From the NCBI GenBank assembly GCA_019747685.1, contig JAIEQN010000995.1, positions 1 to 39,973 on the forward strand: a DNA stretch of 39,973 nucleotides. The letters run 5' to 3'. Numbering within the stretch: the first letter of the stretch is position 1; each line of letters starts with the position of its first letter. The notes under the pieces were generated by a model, which ran no database searches, was not told where the DNA came from, and saw only the letters and a list, made by a program, of their open reading frames with translations. This document shows positions 9,617 through 20,574 of the stretch, piece by piece. The stretch is from Gemmataceae bacterium. Lineage in GTDB: Bacteria > Planctomycetota > Planctomycetia > Gemmatales > Gemmataceae. The position numbers were made by a program, and so were the translations under genes.

Positions 9617-10981
<1,365 letters not shown>

Positions 10982-11003
10982 CACAAGTCCTCGGCGTCAG
11001 CCT

Positions 11004-11071: not shown

Positions 11072-14000
11072 TCAGTCCGCGAAGCAGAACTCATTACTCA
11101 TCAGCAGCACCTGGGCGAGACTCTCCCACGGCCCGAGCCGCGGCGGGGGCGGCCCGCCGAACTCGGCCCGGGCGTCCCACACCCGCCCGGTCCCGCCGCC
11201 GGACAGCACCTCGGTGAGGACCGGGGCCCACAGGTGCTGGTCGGTGTTCAGCCCGCCGCGGATGTCGGCGACGAAGTCCAGGGTGTCGCCGGCCCGGACG
11301 GCCACCGCCTCGATGTCGAGCGGGGCCATGCCGTGGTGGGCGACGGCCGAGTGCAGGACACCGTGTCGGCTGCTGACGACCGACCCGCGGACCCCGTCCC
11401 CGGCCTTCTCCTCGTGAACCAGGGTCGAGCGGATGCGGACGGTCAGGTCGGCCGGGGCGGTCCAGCGGCGGACGACGGCGTGGGCGAGGTCGTTGCCGGG
11501 GTGGCCGCCGGCCGCGGTCAACTGCGCCCAGCCCCAGGTCGGGTCCGGGAAGTTCGGGCCGCCCTGCCAGGCACTGCCGGTGAAGTGCGGTAGGGGCCGG
11601 AAGTTCGACAGCCCTCCGGACGGCGGGTCGAAGGCGGCCACGCCGTAGCTCCAGGCCGACGGCCGGGCCGGCTCGGGCGGGGCGGCGTCCGCCGCGGCGG
11701 CCTCGACCAGGGCGACCGCGGCCCGTGTTTGTTCCGCGGTCGGTTCGCGCTGGTAGGCCAGCCGGTAGAGCTGCCGGGCCTTGTCCTCAGGGGTGGTCTC
11801 GGCCTTCACCGCCGGGTGGCGGGCGAGGGCCCTGGCCCGGTCGAGGGCGAGCGGGTGGTTGAGGAAGAACAGGGCCTGCTGGGGGACGGTGGTTTCGCTC
11901 CGCTGCGGGACGTGCAGGTCCGGGTTGGCCACGTCGAACGCCCGCAACAGGTCGGCCGGGAACTGCCGGTCGACCAGCCCGTACACGGTTCGCCGCGGGA
12001 CGTACGGCCGGGCGAACAGGTCGAACGGCCGGCCGCCGGCCGTTCGGTCCAGGTCGCCGGTGACGGCGAACAGGGAGTCACGCACCTCCTCGAACGACAG
12101 CCGCCGGGCGTTCATCCGCCACAGCAGCCGATTCCCCGGATCGCGGGCGACCGGGTCGTTGCGGCCGGCCGAGGACTGCTGGTAGGCGGCCGAGAGCATG
12201 ACGAGCTTGTGCAGCTTCTTCAGGCTCCAGCCGTCGGCCACGAACCGGCCGGCCAGCCAGTCGAGCAGTTCGGGGTGTGACGGCGGCTCGGCCCGGGTGC
12301 CGAAGTCGCTGGGCGTCCGGACCAGGCCCTGGCCGAAGTGGTGCATCCAGACCCGGTTGACCATCACCCGGGCGGTCAGCGGGTTGGCCGGGTCGGCGAT
12401 CGCCCGGGCCAACTCCAGCCGGCCGCTGCCGCCGATGAACGGCTTCCGGCCCGGCCCGGACAGGACGCCGAGGAACCGCCGGGGGACGACGGCCCCGGGG
12501 GTGGCCGGGTTGCCCCGGCGGAAGACCCGGGCGTCGGCCGGGTGCGGCCGGTCGATCAGGACGGTGGCGTAGGCCGGGGCGTCGGGCGAGCGGATCAGCC
12601 ACCGGTCCACCGCGCCCTGGAGCTTCCACAGCTCCTCGGTCACGTTGGTCGGGAAGAACAGCTCGTTCTCGACGATCGGCTCGTCGGGAACCTCGCACGG
12701 CGAGTCGGCCCCGCGAAGGACCCGCCAGAGGGCGGCCGCGGCCGGGTCGGGGGGCGGGGCCGGTTTTGTGAGCGGGATGCCGAGGAAGGTCGGCCGCCGT
12801 GGCTCGACCGCGGCGAACAGGCCGGCGTACCGCCGGGCGACCTCCCGCATGTCCCCCGGGGGCATTACGAAGGCCCGGGCGACGAGCCGATTCACCTGGT
12901 CCGGCGGGGCCGCGGCCAGTTCGCGGGACACGTCGGCGGCCTTCGCGGCGAACTCGGCCGGCGGCAGCGTGGCGAAGGCGTGCCAGGCGGCCCAAACCGG
13001 GTCCTCGTGGGCCGCGGCGGCGGTCAGGTAGTCCCGCCAGCGGCGGACGGCCTCCGGGATCAGGTCGTCGGGGCCGAGGATTTGGTCGAACCCTTCTTCC
13101 GGGTACTTGTGCAATTCGAGTTGGGCTTCAAGGTAGTCGCCGACCCGGGCCCGGGTGCGGTCGGCCGCTTCGCGCCGCCGCTTGGCCATCGTGTCGGCCA
13201 GCTTCTTCTGCCGCTCCTTCAGCCCGGCGGCGAACGCCCCGGAGGTGGGTAGCGGTTCGATAGGCACTTGCCGTTCGGCCGAACTCCGGAAGACGCCGTA
13301 GAGGGCGTAGTAGTCGTCGGTCGGGATCGGGTCGTACTTGTGGTCGTGGCAGCGGGCGCAGGCCACCGTCAGCCCGAGCATCCCGCGGGTGACGGCGTCG
13401 ATCCGGTCGTCGATGATGTCGTGCGTCACCCCGATGAACCGCCGGCCGAGGGTCAGGAACCCCATCGCCGCCTGGGCCGCCGGGTCGTCCGGGGCCACCC
13501 GGTCGGCGGCCAGTTGGAGCGTCAGGAACCGGTCGTAGGGCAGGTCCTCGTTCAGCGACCGGACGACCCAGTCGCGGTACGCCCGGGCGTGGACCCAAAA
13601 CCGCTCCTCCCGGTCGTAGACGTACCCCTTCGTGTCCGAGTACCGGGCCACGTCGAGCCAGTGCCGGCCCCAGTGCTCGCCGTAGTGGGGCGACGCCAGG
13701 AGCCGGTCGACGAGCTGTTCGTAGGCGTCGGGCGACGGGTCGGCGACGAACGCCTCGACCTGCTCGGGCGTCGGCGGCAGCCCGGTCAGGTCGTAGCTGG
13801 CCCGGCGGATCAGGGTGCGGCGGTCGGCCGACGGCGACGGGGCCAGCCCGTTCTCGGCGAGCTTGGCCAGGACGAAGTGGTCGATCTCATTGCGTACCGG
13901 GCACTCGGTGCTCGGCACCTTCGGCACCGGCGGCACCTTCACCGCCTGGAAGGCCCAGTGCGGCGCGGCGGCCTTGGCGGTACTCGCCTCACCGCCGGCC

Positions 14001-14371
14001 GGCCAGACGGCCCCCTGCTCGACCCACTTCACCAGGGCGGCGACCTGGGCGTCCTTGAGCGGCTTGTCCGGCGGCATCTTCAGCTCGCCGGTCCGGCGGA
14101 CGGCCCGGATGAGGCGGCTCTGGTCGGGCTGGCCGGGGACGACCGCCGGGCCGCCGTCGCCGCCGGCCAGGGCCGCCGCCCGCGAGTCGAGCCGCAGCCC
14201 CGACTGCTGCTTCTTCGGCCCGTGGCACTTCCCGCACACGTCCACCAGCACCGGCCGGACGTTGGCCTCGAAGAACTCCCCGGGCGTCGGGTCGGCGGCG
14301 GGGGCCGCGGCCGGGCCGAGCGCCGCCACGGCGGCCGCCATCCAGACGGAACGGCGTGGGGTTCGGCTCAC
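11072..14371 (-). CDS. PSCyt1-DUF1549-DUF1553 protein (large planctomycete cytochrome-like)
   Basis: Exported 1099-residue protein. Order of domains: signal sequence (SRTPRRSVWMAAAVAALG); PSCyt1 cytochrome-like domain with a CGKCH haem-type motif; DUF1549/PSCyt2 (NEIDHFVLAKLAENGLAPSP...) with a second CARCHDHKYDP motif; DUF1553/PSD1 (ANPLTARVMVNRVWMHHFGQ...PPSHPELLDWLAGRFV). Near the C-terminus is an unusual beta-rich stretch (WSYGVAAFDPPSGG...HEEKAGDGVRGSVVSSRHG...) of about 150 residues before the final LLMSNEFCFAD. I chose GTG 14371 because it gives the complete signal peptide; ATG 14341 is possible. It heads a probable operon with the DUF1501 gene. Haem binding is inferred from CxxCH only. 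Confidence 0.88.
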   Translation of the reverse strand: MSRTPRRSVWMAAAVAALGPAAAPAADPTPGEFFEANVRPVLVDVCGKCHGPKKQQSGLRLDSRAAALAGGDGGPAVVPGQPDQSRLIRAVRRTGELKMPPDKPLKDAQVAALVKWVEQGAVWPAGGEASTAKAAAPHWAFQAVKVPPVPKVPSTECPVRNEIDHFVLAKLAENGLAPSPSADRRTLIRRASYDLTGLPPTPEQVEAFVADPSPDAYEQLVDRLLASPHYGEHWGRHWLDVARYSDTKGYVYDREERFWVHARAYRDWVVRSLNEDLPYDRFLTLQLAADRVAPDDPAAQAAMGFLTLGRRFIGVTHDIIDDRIDAVTRGMLGLTVACARCHDHKYDPIPTDDYYALYGVFRSSAERQVPIEPLPTSGAFAAGLKERQKKLADTMAKRRREAADRTRARVGDYLEAQLELHKYPEEGFDQILGPDDLIPEAVRRWRDYLTAAAAHEDPVWAAWHAFATLPPAEFAAKAADVSRELAAAPPDQVNRLVARAFVMPPGDMREVARRYAGLFAAVEPRRPTFLGIPLTKPAPPPDPAAAALWRVLRGADSPCEVPDEPIVENELFFPTNVTEELWKLQGAVDRWLIRSPDAPAYATVLIDRPHPADARVFRRGNPATPGAVVPRRFLGVLSGPGRKPFIGGSGRLELARAIADPANPLTARVMVNRVWMHHFGQGLVRTPSDFGTRAEPPSHPELLDWLAGRFVADGWSLKKLHKLVMLSAAYQQSSAGRNDPVARDPGNRLLWRMNARRLSFEEVRDSLFAVTGDLDRTAGGRPFDLFARPYVPRRTVYGLVDRQFPADLLRAFDVANPDLHVPQRSETTVPQQALFFLNHPLALDRARALARHPAVKAETTPEDKARQLYRLAYQREPTAEQTRAAVALVEAAAADAAPPEPARPSAWSYGVAAFDPPSGGLSNFRPLPHFTGSAWQGGPNFPDPTWGWAQLTAAGGHPGNDLAHAVVRRWTAPADLTVRIRSTLVHEEKAGDGVRGSVVSSRHGVLHSAVAHHGMAPLDIEAVAVRAGDTLDFVADIRGGLNTDQHLWAPVLTEVLSGGGTGRVWDARAEFGGPPPPRLGPWESLAQVLLMSNEFCFAD

Positions 14372-14477
14372 GGGCTGGCTCCGCGGGGAGGGCGGGGCTT
14401 CGGGGCGGAATCGCGTCTGGCAGGATGCTGTCAGTGTATCCCCCGCCCGGGCCGGCCACAACCGGGACCGCCCCGGC

Positions 14478-16421
14478 TCAGCGGTCAACGAACAGCCCGC
14501 CCTGGCCGTCCCGGCGGACGACCCCGTTCGCCGGGGCGGTCGGCCCGGCCAGCTTCGGGTACTCGTCGTCGCCGGCCCCGTCGAAGAAGACGCCGACGGC
14601 CTTGTCCGACGCCCCGCCCGGCGTGCCGCCCACCCGGTAGGTGTCCTTCCCGGCGAGGTCGGCGAACACCCCCCACCCGCCGCGGTCGGCCCGCCCGCAC
14701 CCGACCGACTTGGTCAGGTCGTACCGGTCGTCTCCCTGGCCGTCGGCCAGGAGGAAGACGCTCCGGTCCCAGGCGCAACCGATGTTGTACGTCGGCCCGG
14801 CAGCCACGTACTCGTCGGCCCCGGCGTAGTCGAGGAACAGCCCCAGCCCGTAGTGGGCCCCGGCCGCGTGCCCGTACCGGGCCGCCCCGTGCCGGTCGTC
14901 CCCGGCCAGGTCGAGCTTCAGCCCGGCCCCGAAGAAGTAGGCACACGCCTGCGAGAAGTTGGAACTTTCGGACCGGTCGTTCCCGGCCAGGTCGAGCCAG
15001 ACGCCCACCCCGCCGGCCAGGTTGTACCCGTCCCCCTCTGCGCTGAACGGGTAGGTCCGCCGGCCCAGGCCGATCCCCAGCCCGAAGGCGTCGTACTGGA
15101 AGTTCGGGTCGCCCGGCTTGGCGTTGGGGGCGTCGGTCGCGTTGTACCCGCTGGGGATGGCGAACCCGCACCGGTAGCTGTCGTCGCCGGCGACATCGAC
15201 CACCGCCCCGACCCCGCACGGCCCGCCGATCCCGAGCGAGTAGCCGGGGGCGGTGTAGGTGTCATCGCCGGCGAGGTCGAACACCAGGCCCAGCCCGGCG
15301 ACGGCCGCCCCGAGGGTGAACCGGTCGCCGGTGTAGGCGTCCTGGCCCGCCTCGTCCACCAGTAGCCCGACCCCGGCGAACCCACACCCGCCGGAGCCGG
15401 CGGCGGGGGTGTAAGTGTCGTTCCCGGTCCGGTCGATCAGGACCCCACACCCGAGCCGGCCGGTCGCCAGCCCGAATTCGGCCGGGGCGTAGGTGTCGTC
15501 CCCGGCGAAGTCGACTACCAGCCCGAACGGGTGGGCGGGGTCGAAGCTCGACGCGACGACGCCCTTATAGGTGTCGTCCCCGCCGAGGTCGGCCAGGAAC
15601 GCGACCGGCCGCTTAAGGTCGTAGGCGTTGGCCTTCCCGCCACCCAGGACGATCAGCCCGTGTCGGGTTTCCTTGACCGCCAGCAGCTCGCCGCCGAACC
15701 CGTCCGGATTCTTCCCGGCGAGAGGGGCGGCCTTCGCCATCGCCGCCTTCAGCTCGTCCAGGTAGGTCGGGTCAGTCAGGAGCAAGACCGTCCGGACGGC
15801 GGCGGCGAACTTCGGCCCGTCGACCTTCTCCTGCCAGGCGGTGCAGAAGGCGAGGTCGTCCCGGAGCTGTGGCCGGGTGGTGTCGTCCACCGGCAGTTGC
15901 GGGCCGAACCCGCGGACGAGCGGGGCTGCCCGGTCGAACAGGAACGCCCGCTCGGCCGGCGACAGCTTGGCCAGCGCCTCCTCGCGGAGCTTGTCCGCCG
16001 CGTCGAGGACGGCCGTGATGTACCGGATGTGATCGTCCAACGTCTCCCGCTTGCCCGGCGGCGCGGCGACTGACTCGGCGGCCGGCCGGTCGAGGCAATG
16101 GTTGAGCCGGTCCACGACCGCGGGCAGGCCCTTCAGCCCGCCGCCGGCCGCCGCGGCGACGCCCAGGCCCCGCGCCTCCAGCTCGGCCAGCGCCCCCCAC
16201 GGCTCCTTCACCGCCCGCTGCCGTAGCGGCGGCTTGGCATACGCCTTGACCCCGTCGGCCAGGGCCAGTTCCGCCAGGGCCGCCTTCTGGGCATCGGCCA
16301 GGTGCCGGTCGATCTCCGGCTGGACGGCCTCCCGCACCTTCGGGACCAGCGGCTCCGGGCCGGCGGCCCGGAGGGCGACGGCCGACAAGACTACCACGGC
16401 CGGGGCGAGGAGCGGGCGCAT
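14478..16421 (-). CDS. Exported protein with twelve AGDDTY-type repeats
   Basis: Unrecognised secreted protein, 647 residues. A signal peptide (MRPLLAPAVVVLSAVALRAA) is followed by a mostly helical, Ala/Leu-rich domain to about residue 270. From about residue 277 to 630 a short motif recurs twelve times: D-[LFRVEYG]-[AGTQ]-G-[DNQAK]-D-x-Y or a close variant (DLGGDDTY, DFAGDDTY, DRTGNDTY, DEAGQDAY, DLAGDDTY, DVAGDDSY, DLAGNDRS, DLAGDDRH, DYAGADEY, DGQGDDRY, DLAGKDTY, DGAGDDEY). Gly-rich linkers of 15-60 residues lie between them (GCGVLID, GVGLLVD, GLGLVFD). The pattern resembles a beta-solenoid with acidic turns, perhaps Ca2+-binding like RTX repeats, but it is not the RTX consensus. Stands alone; divergent from the truncated enolase. 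Confidence 0.8.
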   Translation of the reverse strand: MRPLLAPAVVVLSAVALRAAGPEPLVPKVREAVQPEIDRHLADAQKAALAELALADGVKAYAKPPLRQRAVKEPWGALAELEARGLGVAAAAGGGLKGLPAVVDRLNHCLDRPAAESVAAPPGKRETLDDHIRYITAVLDAADKLREEALAKLSPAERAFLFDRAAPLVRGFGPQLPVDDTTRPQLRDDLAFCTAWQEKVDGPKFAAAVRTVLLLTDPTYLDELKAAMAKAAPLAGKNPDGFGGELLAVKETRHGLIVLGGGKANAYDLKRPVAFLADLGGDDTYKGVVASSFDPAHPFGLVVDFAGDDTYAPAEFGLATGRLGCGVLIDRTGNDTYTPAAGSGGCGFAGVGLLVDEAGQDAYTGDRFTLGAAVAGLGLVFDLAGDDTYTAPGYSLGIGGPCGVGAVVDVAGDDSYRCGFAIPSGYNATDAPNAKPGDPNFQYDAFGLGIGLGRRTYPFSAEGDGYNLAGGVGVWLDLAGNDRSESSNFSQACAYFFGAGLKLDLAGDDRHGAARYGHAAGAHYGLGLFLDYAGADEYVAAGPTYNIGCAWDRSVFLLADGQGDDRYDLTKSVGCGRADRGGWGVFADLAGKDTYRVGGTPGGASDKAVGVFFDGAGDDEYPKLAGPTAPANGVVRRDGQGGLFVDR

Positions 16422-16544
16422 CGGCGACTCCAGCGAGAGATCGACTGCCGGTCATGATAACGGGCCGGCCGGCGATTCCGACCGGATGGGTACTGGCATC
16501 GGGCCGACTTCTCGGGCACAATGCCCGGACGCACCGGAGGGGCC

Positions 16545-17225
16545 ATGAAGATCGCCGGCGTCGAAACCCACGTCTGCCACGCCCGGATGCGGAACTGGGT
16601 GTTCGTCAAGGTCGTGACCGACCAGGACGGGCTGTTCGGCTGGGGCGAGGCCACCCTGGAATGGCACACCCGGGCGGTCGTCGGGGCCGTCCAGGACATC
16701 GCGGAGTTGGTCGTCGGCGAGGACCCCACCCGGGTCGAGCACCTGTGGCAGATGATGCACCGCCAGCACTTCTGGCACGGCCACGGCGTCGTCCGGGCGA
16801 CGGCCATCGCCGGCATCGACCTGGCCCTGTGGGACATCCTCGGCAAGGTGTGCGGGGTGCCGTGTTCGAAGCTCTGGGGCGGGCCGGTCCGGGACCACGT
16901 CCGCACCTACTGCCACCTCGGCGGCGGGCGGATGGAGGACTTCTACGAGACGGCCGCGGACGACGCGAAGCGGTTCGCGGATTTGGCCCGCGAGGCCGTC
17001 GCCGCCGGATTCACCGCATTCAAGTGCATGGCCGTGCCGCCGGCCATGCCGATCGAGGGGCTGAAGCCGGTGCGGACGGCCGAGAAGTGCGTGGCCGCTC
17101 ACTACGGTAGCTCGGCGACCTCCCCCCCGGCCCGGGTGGCGAGCGCGGGCAGTACCGCGTCGGCCTCGTACCGGAGGAAGCGGACGGAGCCGTCACAGCA
17201 GGCGAAGTTGGCACCGCCGGGGTGA
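16545..17225 (+). pseudogene. Truncated enolase-superfamily dehydratase (DgoD-like)
   Basis: N-terminal half of a mandelate racemase/muconate-lactonizing-type protein, nearest in appearance to galactonate-dehydratase-like members. The capping domain is clear ([57 protein letters not shown]) and homology continues to [14 protein letters not shown]. After about 185 residues it stops: the remaining codons to the stop at 17225 are antisense to the DUF1559 gene and give low-complexity Ser/Ala/Arg sequence. The barrel half with the metal-binding Asp/Glu/Glu residues and the general acid/base His is missing, so it cannot be a working enzyme of the family. The start is supported by GGAGGGG just before ATG 16545. 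The break falls within a few bases of the DUF1559 stop. Confidence 0.82.
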
Positions 17226-17983: not shown

Positions 17984-18429
17984 CGCGCGGCCTCCTCGGC
18001 TGGGGACGGGCGGCGGGCGAGGACGAATCCGGCCAGCGACCCGACCGCACAGCCCCCGGCCACCGCCAGGGTCGCCGGGCCGACGGGCAGGCCCTCGCCG
18101 GACCCGAAGCACCCGCACGTAATGTCCAGGCCCCGGTGCGGGGCGCTCCACTGGGCCGCCAGGTAGGCCGCGAACAACACCAGCGCCGCCAGGTAGGCCC
18201 CCCGGGCCCACCACCCGGCCAGCAGGCAGACCCCGACCGCGGCGTGGACCCCGGGGGTCGCGGCCGCGGCCCACAGCCCGACCCGCTCGCCGACGATCCG
18301 GTAGTTGTAGACGCTCGACAGGTAGTAGTACGGGTGGCCGAGGTGGGCGACGGCGCTGCCGAGCAGGGCGGCCGCCAGCCCGGCCCCGACCAGCCGCTCG
18401 ACCAAGCCCCGCCGACGGCTACTCGTCAT
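17953..18429 (-). CDS. MauE/DoxX-type redox membrane protein
   Basis: Inner-membrane protein of about 158 residues with about four transmembrane helices (LVGAGLAAALLGSAVAHLG, VHAAVGVCLLAGWW, AYLAALVLFAAYLAAQW, LAVAGGCAVGSLAGFVLA). The loop DITCGCFGSGEG carries the CxC/CGCFG signature of the MauE branch of the DoxX superfamily. MauE is needed for disulfide formation in the methylamine dehydrogenase small subunit; related proteins are linked to thiol oxidation or sulfur transfer. I start at ATG 18429, which leaves an 11-base overlap with the rhodanese gene; the ORF track's extra 14 residues are shadow. Next to a rhodanese fusion and a six-Cys exported protein, a role in envelope thiol chemistry is attractive but inferred. 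Confidence 0.82.
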   Translation of the reverse strand: MTSSRRRGLVERLVGAGLAAALLGSAVAHLGHPYYYLSSVYNYRIVGERVGLWAAAATPGVHAAVGVCLLAGWWARGAYLAALVLFAAYLAAQWSAPHRGLDITCGCFGSGEGLPVGPATLAVAGGCAVGSLAGFVLARRPSPAEEAARCVEADRGSR

Positions 18430-19456
18430 CGCCCGCCCACCCCACCCAGCCCCCGCGGAACACGCGGACATCCCGGTAGCCGCGGTGGTACAGGTCCGCC
18501 GCGACGGTGTCCGCCCACTGGCACGACCGGCTCTGGCAGTACACCACGACCGGCCCGCCCGGGGGAAGGGCCGCCGTCACCGCCCGCCGCTCCGCCAGCC
18601 CGGCCGACACCGGCAGGTTCACCGCCCCCGGGACGTGCCCCAGGGCGTAGTCCGCCGGCAGCCGGGCGTCGATGAAGGTGACCGCCGGCGCCCCGGCCAG
18701 CGCCCGGGCTTCGACGGCGTCGATCTCGGGGACACCGGCCGGGAAGTGGTGCCCGACCACCAGCGCGACCGCCGACCGGTCCCGCAGCAGCCCGTCCGGG
18801 TCGAGCGCCTGGAGGGCCACCCCGGCGGCACCGCCGACCCCGACCACCACACACGCCCCGACGACCGGGCCCGCCCGCCGCGCCGGCCCCCAGGCCCGGA
18901 GCAGCCCGAGGGCGGCCGTGACCACGGCCACGCACGCCAGCCCGTACCCCCACGACCCGGCCCGCAGGGCGAGCGGGTCGGGCGGGGCCGTCGAGACTAC
19001 CACCCCGGCGCCGTCCCAGAGGGCCGCGAGTTCGGCGTAGGGGAGGAGCTGCGGCTCCGCGGGCGGCTCGACGACCCGGGCCAGGCCGCCCTCGTCGCCC
19101 GCGTACAGGACCCAGTGGAGGTACGGCATCCCCAACCCGGGGCGGCGGACGTGGAGGACGACCGGGTGCCGCGAGTCGCGGAGGGACTGCGGGGTCAGGC
19201 CGGTCATCGGGGTGGCGACCAGGCCGCACGCCCGGGCCGCCCGGCACAGCTCCTCGGCCGAACTGCCCCGGTACGACCCGACGTATTCGCGGCTGAGGAG
19301 GCGCGACAGGTCGGCGTCGGTCCCGAGCATCCGGGCGGCCGCGTACACGCAGTAGACGCCGCAGTACGGCCCCTCGGAGGCGGGCAGGGCGGGGCCGCCG
19401 CCCGTCGCCCGGGCCGCCTCGACCGCCGCCGCCAGGAACAGCAGGCCCGGGGTCAT
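18419..19456 (-). CDS. C39-like peptidase domain fused to a rhodanese domain
   Basis: Unusual 345-residue membrane fusion. An N-terminal hydrophobic segment precedes a C39-like cysteine peptidase fold (residues 25-155): Cys32/Cys36 in GPYCGVYCVYAAARMLG, His114 in YLHWVLYAGD, and VEPP at about 129 where the family usually has a DP motif. Two transmembrane segments follow (SWGYGLACVAVVTAALGLL, about 169-186; GPVVGACVVVGVGGAAGVAL, about 196-215). The C-terminus is a rhodanese domain (VTFIDARLPADYALGHVPGA...) with active-site loop CQSRSC starting at Cys307. It starts at ATG 19456, overlapping the upstream stop by ATGA; the ORF track's 58 extra residues are shadow. The topology may put one catalytic domain on each side of the membrane or both on one side. 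It may be a protease, or a non-peptidase C39 as in some exporters. Confidence 0.8.
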   Translation of the reverse strand: MTPGLLFLAAAVEAARATGGGPALPASEGPYCGVYCVYAAARMLGTDADLSRLLSREYVGSYRGSSAEELCRAARACGLVATPMTGLTPQSLRDSRHPVVLHVRRPGLGMPYLHWVLYAGDEGGLARVVEPPAEPQLLPYAELAALWDGAGVVVSTAPPDPLALRAGSWGYGLACVAVVTAALGLLRAWGPARRAGPVVGACVVVGVGGAAGVALQALDPDGLLRDRSAVALVVGHHFPAGVPEIDAVEARALAGAPAVTFIDARLPADYALGHVPGAVNLPVSAGLAERRAVTAALPPGGPVVVYCQSRSCQWADTVAADLYHRGYRDVRVFRGGWVGWAGDDE

Positions 19457-20574
19457 GCGGCCGCCCCCCGCCGGGCCGCCAGCCGCCACACCCCCCCCGC
19501 GACCGCCACCAGCCCGGCCGCGGCCCCCGCGTACACCCACCACGGGGTGTGGGAGGCGGGCGTGAACGGCGACACCTCCCCCTGGGCGACGGCCTGGTTG
19601 ACGGTCTTGACGATCTTCCCCCCCCGCCACTCATACTGGATGGGCTGGTCGTCCCACACGCTCACCTTGGTCCCATCGGGGACGATCGTACTCAGCACGA
19701 ATGGGTCCTTGTCCCACCTGTCGACCACCTTGATGTCACTTATGGACACTTCCTCGATTAGATCGTCCGTCGACCCATCGGCGTATGTGTTAGTCGCCGT
19801 GTGTCTAAACTCCGTCACCATCCGGCCGGCGCCGACCTTGTTGATCCTGCTTATGTTGTATTCCTGCTTCCAGCTAGTCAGTTTGACGGGCTTGCCGTCC
19901 TCGTCCTTCGTGACCGAACCGACCGGCACTCCCTCGTAGATCAAGTCGCCCGCTGACTTTTCCTGAGCAATCCGGACCGGCAGATACCCGTTGGCAGGGT
20001 CGAGCCAGACGTTGAGCCGCCCCCACCGCCCGGCGGATTCGACCAGCACCGCGGGTTTCCCATTCAAGGGTGTCGGTTCGGTCTTGACCCGCCCGTCGCG
20101 GATCAACTCGGGCAGGGGTATGAACCCGTTCGTGTTCGTCCGCCCGTCGAGCGCCAGGCTGTACGGCCCGTACGTCAACCGCTGCAGCAGCTCAGGGGGC
20201 AGCGGGCGGACGTACGCCGAGACCCCGCTCAACGCCCGTCCGGTCTTGGGGTCAGCCGAGACGCTGATCTCCCCGGCCGCCGAGATGACCTCCTCGCCCT
20301 GGCTTGTGTTGGTGACCTGCCGGCCGTCTTGCATGGACGTGGTCGACCCCCGATCCAGTACTTTCCACCGCGGCGGGTCGAAGTAGATGTGGCCGACCCG
20401 GACGGTGGGAAGTGGAGACTTCGGGTCGTAACCCATACGGGTCGTGGCGGTAAACGACCCGCGGGGGATGGCCGGGTAGTTGCGGGTTAGTTCGTCGACC
20501 GGGTCTTGCGCGCCCACACTAGGACTGACGCAGACCAGAAGTAGTAGTACCACGGCAATCCGGTGGATGGCCAC
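19453..20574 (-). CDS. Secreted protein with C-terminal membrane anchor, LolA-like appearance
   Basis: Not firmly recognised. 373 residues with a signal peptide (AIHRIAVVLLLLVCVSPSVGAQ), a long beta-rich body (SFTATTRMGYDP, VGHIYFDPPRWKV, WLDPANGYLPVRIAQE, KLTSWKQEYNISRINK) and a C-terminal membrane helix plus basic tail (WVYAGAAAGLVAVAGGVWRLAARRG), so most of it should face outward. The alternating beta strands and 'WLDPANGYLPVR' recall LolA/outer-membrane lipoprotein-sorting-like folds, but this is only an impression. I start at GTG 20574, preceded by GGAGGGT; the ORF track's 33 extra residues have no signal character. Its stop overlaps the C39-rhodanese start. Base composition is less GC-rich than flanking genes, with more Thr, Lys and Asn, suggesting a different history. 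Confidence 0.65.
   Translation of the reverse strand: MAIHRIAVVLLLLVCVSPSVGAQDPVDELTRNYPAIPRGSFTATTRMGYDPKSPLPTVRVGHIYFDPPRWKVLDRGSTTSMQDGRQVTNTSQGEEVISAAGEISVSADPKTGRALSGVSAYVRPLPPELLQRLTYGPYSLALDGRTNTNGFIPLPELIRDGRVKTEPTPLNGKPAVLVESAGRWGRLNVWLDPANGYLPVRIAQEKSAGDLIYEGVPVGSVTKDEDGKPVKLTSWKQEYNISRINKVGAGRMVTEFRHTATNTYADGSTDDLIEEVSISDIKVVDRWDKDPFVLSTIVPDGTKVSVWDDQPIQYEWRGGKIVKTVNQAVAQGEVSPFTPASHTPWWVYAGAAAGLVAVAGGVWRLAARRGAAA

Follow-up and report, generated by a model that had tools for sequence, protein, structure and literature searches.

A predicted twelve-coil acidic beta-solenoid from a planctomycete, with a conserved Arg-Tyr-aromatic-His-Asp patch and a probable export signal

Introduction

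The window analysed here, a stretch of 39,973 nucleotides (contig JAIEQN010000995.1) from a Gemmataceae bacterium, encodes on its minus strand a 647-aa protein in which a short acidic motif recurs twelve times. The locus raises the question of which fold these motifs build, whether they hold metal, and what the protein does. The gene occupies 14478..16421 (ATG at 16421, stop at 14478-14480) and is single-copy in its own genome; over this interval the plus strand is interrupted by stops and contains no open frame.

Database searches with the protein gave no match in Pfam (E up to 10) or in the NCBIfam, PADLOC (defence) and PHROGs libraries. Plasmid and phage collections contained no match to the gene, and PDB sequence searches, including a profile search, returned no relative of the protein. 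The PDB profile matches concerned the helical part alone, where apolipoproteins and further helical proteins came up at E 0.0036 or worse; we treated them as chance matches. Open-access literature was searched for the motif strings and for planctomycete solenoid/PDZ proteins, and no paper was found.

Repeat motifs and predicted fold

An earlier note on this DNA had described a twelve-fold D-x-x-G-D-D-x-Y repeat. By motif scan, D-x-x-G-x-D was found twelve times; D-x-x-G-x-D-x-Y fits ten of the twelve motifs and the strict form six. When the region was shuffled 20,000 times, matches to D-x-x-G-x-D-x-Y averaged 0.047 with a maximum of 2, compared with the real count of ten, and the repeat is thereby upheld. 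From the N-terminus, motifs 1 to 6 read DLGGDDTY (residues 278-285, 15567..15590, minus strand as for all following features of the gene), DFAGDDTY (304-311, 15489..15512), DRTGNDTY (330-337, 15411..15434), DEAGQDAY (356-363, 15333..15356), DLAGDDTY (382-389, 15255..15278) and DVAGDDSY (409-416, 15174..15197). Motifs 7 to 12 read DLAGNDRS (477-484, 14970..14993), DLAGDDRH (504-511, 14889..14912), DYAGADEY (531-538, 14808..14831), DGQGDDRY (560-567, 14721..14744), DLAGKDTY (588-595, 14637..14660) and DGAGDDEY (614-621, 14559..14582). The motif Tyr is replaced in motifs 7 and 8 alone. Successive motifs are spaced 26, 26, 26, 26, 27, 68, 27, 27, 29, 28 and 26 residues apart, the 68-residue step between motifs 6 and 7 spanning an insert.

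For structure prediction, AlphaFold2 was run without metal on the full-length protein (13 aligned sequences; pLDDT 88.8, pTM 0.91) and on the solenoid alone (39 sequences; pLDDT 94.7, pTM 0.92). The full-length model runs from a signal-like helix through helices at residues 25-230 to strands from residue 246 and repeated strand-turn-strand coils. In the models every motif follows the G-x-G-hydrophobic-D strand of its own coil and precedes the x-Y strand, and the motifs are therefore structurally equivalent in the prediction. On this modelling the protein is almost certainly a beta-solenoid in which each coil contributes one motif turn, as the earlier note had proposed, and not a propeller or an unrelated fold. 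A Ca2+ beta-propeller of the FG-GAP/integrin type was also considered and dropped: no FG-GAP match was found in Pfam, no propeller appeared among the best fold matches, and the strand pattern of the model resembles a solenoid.

The solenoid with its twelve motif coils was assigned to residues 243-615 (14577..15695). Between coils 6 and 7 lies the insert (residues 417-470, 15012..15173), which was delimited from the model and from conservation and includes a low-confidence loop at about 421-440. The helical domain was assigned by DSSP of the model to residues 25-230 (15732..16349; blocks mostly at pLDDT 81-97). An N-terminal helical domain of about 270 residues had been expected; its helical nature was borne out, and its length was revised to about 205 residues following a signal-like segment. 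This segment, MRPLLAPAVVVLSAVALRAAG (residues 1-21, 16359..16421), is a probable Sec signal peptide by a hydrophobicity heuristic, and the N-termini of relatives are similar. Nearly all complete family members inspected begin with signal-like hydrophobic N-termini, several of which end in a lipobox-like Cys by the same kind of heuristic. Judged from these N-termini, the window protein is very probably exported, to the periplasm or the cell surface.

The acidic edge and its possible metal binding

For fold comparison, the solenoid model was searched against the PDB with Foldseek. The top four matches were the four chains of 3p4g (E 0.28-3.3, none significant), the best of them weak (E 0.28, TM 0.44 by target, rmsd 9.1 A), and 3p4g was also the first PDB match for the full-length model. 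This entry is the Ca2+-bound beta-helix that forms the ice-binding region (RIV) of the Marinomonas primoryensis adhesin MpAFP/MpIBP. A fold search of BFVD gave nothing significant. In 3p4g an XGTGND turn occurs once per 19-residue coil and is followed by an XUXU strand, and only one edge carries Ca2+ (PMC6891781; PMC3492233).

The turn of the window protein, D-x-[AG]-G-[DN]-D with x-Y-x-x after it, matches XGTGND-XUXU at positions 4, 5, 6 and 8 and differs at positions 1-3; G4, N/D5, D6 and a hydrophobic position 8 are thus common to both. The turns correspond in place and length as well: in RIV, and in the predicted solenoid, each coil has one acidic turn of six residues that contains Gly and leads into a strand. 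Unlike RIV, the window protein has a unit of 26 instead of 19 residues, D at position 1 and no Thr3, and the flat Thr/Asx ice face is absent from it; it has in addition a helical N-terminal domain, an insert and the conserved R/Y/H/D patch (see below). Neither the sequence nor the fold comparison of the two reached a significant score. By analogy with 3p4g, it is reasonably likely that the Asp ladder holds a metal, namely Ca2+; the agreement at G4, N/D5, D6 and hydrophobic position 8, on which this view is based, is a lead and not proof.

Conservation at the turn bears on the metal in two ways. Among 39 relatives, D occupies motif position 6 in 92-100% across coils 1-11 and position 1 in 87-100%. 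In a stack of twelve coils, these near-invariant carboxylates, D1 on one side of the turn and D6 on the other, should repel one another unless a cation is present. Position 5 is variable, with D or N in just 62-66% in coils 4, 7 and 11, and the window protein has Q, K and A in three coils. A metal-free beta-solenoid carrying the same patch, in which buried Asp residues of Asp-Gly turns would cap backbone amides of neighbouring coils, would accommodate this variability, the weak fold match to a Ca2+ protein, and the confident AlphaFold2 fold obtained without metal, though AlphaFold2 always omits metals. Set against the expected repulsion and the four-position agreement with XGTGND-XU, we regard the metal-free form as rather unlikely.

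The same turn recalls the repeats-in-toxin (RTX) family, which the repeat had been said to resemble without matching. PF00353 gave no match to the window protein at E up to 10, nor to 13 relatives, whereas it matches 81 stretches in ORFs on other contigs of the same genome; hhalign of the 39-sequence alignment against three RTX proteins of this genome gave a probability of 0.3%. A G-x-D-x-hydrophobic turn core is common to both. Canonical RTX repeats, however, have a 9-residue unit (18 per turn) with two Ca2+ turns per coil, whereas the window protein has a 26-residue unit (26-29 period) and a single motif turn in each coil, and the nonapeptide profile GGxGxDxUx is unmatched in it. RTX proteins are exported by type I secretion through a C-terminal signal and have no N-terminal Sec signal, in contrast to the Sec-type hydrophobic N-terminus (heuristic) seen here. 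A canonical RTX protein exported by a type I system is accordingly highly improbable, even with the shared G-[DN]-D-x-hydrophobic core, the many true RTX proteins in the same genome and a non-canonical RTX roll as the closest solved fold. This last point, together with the negative profile results, agrees with resemblance short of a match. The family suggests that one-sided turns of RTX-like form are possible outside RTX proteins, in a protein exported by Sec. Examples of the true RTX ORFs on other contigs are L068, L070 and L072; in L067, a further one in this genome, RTX repeats appear by eye to be joined to a cysteine protease of the calpain type.

Conserved patch on coils 6-9

Among polar side chains beyond the motif, conservation over 39 sequences is highest for D552 (39/39; 14766..14768), H523 (38/39; 14853..14855), R455 (36/39; 15057..15059), Y495 (36/39) and Y516 (34/39; 14874..14876). 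Position 496, adjacent to Y495 (both at 14934..14939), is aromatic (W, Y or F) in 37/39. The window protein keeps all of these residues, with F496 at the aromatic position. In 20 held-out sequences, which were not used to define the patch, R455, Y495 and the aromatic residue were each present in 20/20, and H523 and D552 were each present in all 19 sequences covering the position. One clear exception among the 39, L012, has lost R455, Y495, the aromatic residue, Y516 and H523 and has kept D552.

Positions 496, 523 and 552 each lie eight residues ahead of the next motif, on three successive coils, with D552 one coil after H523. Because of this common register they should be stacked, and R455 is supplied by the insert just before these coils. 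From these positions we infer that the patch residues meet in space. Such a patch is probably a dedicated ligand-binding or catalytic site, a reading that rests on conservation in the sequences.

For a working analogy only, the pectate lyase superfamily was considered, right-handed parallel beta-helix enzymes in which the active site is built from side chains of successive coils. The window protein departs from this superfamily in giving no match in Pfam; Foldseek matched it to pectate lyases only at E above 4 and TM below 0.2.

The patch could alternatively do no more than pack the insert loop onto the solenoid of a passive structural or adhesive rod (a surface adhesin, an ice binder or an S-layer-like protein). 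R455 does lie within the insert loop, adhesins often contain long solenoids, and the closest fold belongs to the ice-binding region of an adhesin. The most conserved additional residues are, however, His, Asp, Arg and Tyr and not a flat Thr/Asx array; the coil number is fixed and positional identity is kept across phyla, unlike the usual expanding repeats of adhesins; and the PDZ fusions described below would be unusual for an adhesin. A passive rod is on these grounds unlikely, and a dedicated site on the solenoid is preferred.

Gln residues at 370, 396, 448 and 491 are found at 85-90% in the family, and the window protein retains 491 alone. With this Gln ladder mostly lost and two motif Tyr residues replaced, the function of the window copy may have diverged.

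Repeat history and inheritance

Degraded motif copies had been taken in the earlier note to hint at duplications of different age. This was not supported. The repeats within the window protein are all old, with 15-50% aa identity to one another, and the best match of a repeat in other species was its own positional counterpart in 138/441 cases (37 expected by chance). Recent unequal duplications were ruled out on this low identity and on the positional counterparts, and the twelve-coil plan is thus older than the divergence of the family. Motif ends of coils 7 and 8 read NDRY and NDHY in L015 and DDRY and KDSH in L020. As these closest relatives have Tyr in coil 7, where the window protein has Ser, NDRS and DDRH look like late local substitutions.

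In a maximum-likelihood tree the window protein joins L020, from a planctomycete outside the class of the source organism, before L015, from the organism's own family (support 99/93). Near the source organism the gene is rare: it was present in 0/5 other genomes of the genus, and just one other sampled genome of the family matches. The tree grouping and this patchy presence suggest horizontal transfer or repeated loss.

Distribution and fusion partners

With profile A1, relatives were found in 139/392 sampled Planctomycetota genomes; named Planctomycetota genomes of GTDB contain them too, as do a few MAGs labelled Proteobacteria or unclassified bacteria. The family is present in about a third of the sampled planctomycete genomes, and its solenoid has neither a Pfam or NCBIfam model nor a PDB sequence relative. 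One further relative, L014 (1-452), lies on a contig labelled Candidatus Thorarchaeota and comprises the C-terminal end of a member that closely resembles L003 and L007; this contig is probably bacterial and a contaminant of the MAG.

PDZ domains were found in 12/32 full ORFs of the family, N-terminal to the helical domain; the window protein has no PDZ domain. Many relatives share this domain with the periplasmic proteases HtrA/DegP and Prc, from which the family differs in having no protease domain by Pfam; NCBIfam HtrA/Prc matches of relatives are probably due to the PDZ domain that both have. The earlier note had described neither the export signals nor the PDZ fusions, nor the conserved patch. 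Some members outside Planctomycetota (L009, L011) have C-terminal extensions of 200-350 residues, that of L009 with HEAT repeats.

Proposed mechanism

The explanation that best accommodates these results, and to which we give about an even chance, is an exported ligand-binding or catalytic solenoid, probably with a Ca2+-filled Asp ladder. The helical N-terminal domain would cap the beta-solenoid of twelve motif coils, in which the six-residue turns D-x-x-G-[DN]-D stack coil on coil into an acidic ladder down one edge, with a strand starting x-Y after each turn. Ca2+ ions would line up along this ladder, much as they do in the one-sided Marinomonas beta-roll that binds ice, and the rod would fold after export, upon Ca2+ binding. 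It would then serve as a scaffold for the R455, Y495, 496 aromatic, Y516, H523 and D552 patch, which lies away from the motif turn on coils 6-9 and would bind or act on a ligand. An envelope glycan or peptide would be the foremost candidate for this ligand, as an assignment a doubtful one.

Taken to its full extent, the family may tentatively represent an undescribed class of exported solenoid enzymes or receptors that is common in Planctomycetota and frequently linked to PDZ domains; a rod held by a Ca2+ or Asp ladder would carry an Arg-Tyr-aromatic-His-Asp site for envelope glycan or peptide. The acidic beta-solenoids would thereby gain a new repeat type; the family has no name, while its fold class is a known one. 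For a repeat protein without an assigned function, the His/Asp/Arg/Tyr patch offers a few residues as targets for mutagenesis.

Neighbouring genes

For the loci examined, all-against-all BLAST of flanking ORFs gave no conserved neighbour naming a pathway. A radical-SAM-like gene (recognised by eye, not by profile) was seen beside or near the solenoid gene in planctomycete family f50 only (L052, L053, L054, L055, L056, L060 and L061); given this limitation to f50, no general function was inferred from it.

In the window, a pair encoding PSCyt1/PSCyt2/PSD1 (DUF1549/DUF1553; 11072-14488, minus strand) and DUF1501 (9617-10984, minus strand) proteins lies directly downstream of the solenoid gene; such pairs are typical of planctomycetes. 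A divergent ORF (16521-17225, plus strand), 100 bp from the solenoid gene, encodes the N-terminal half only of a mandelate racemase/muconate lactonizing enzyme (PF02746), of which related copies are present elsewhere in the same genome. As its frame runs into a convergent DUF1559 gene, this ORF appears to have been either cut short or fused at a breakpoint left by assembly or by an insertion. At 18419-19630 (minus strand) a C39-type peptidase domain and a C-terminal rhodanese domain are combined in one ORF.
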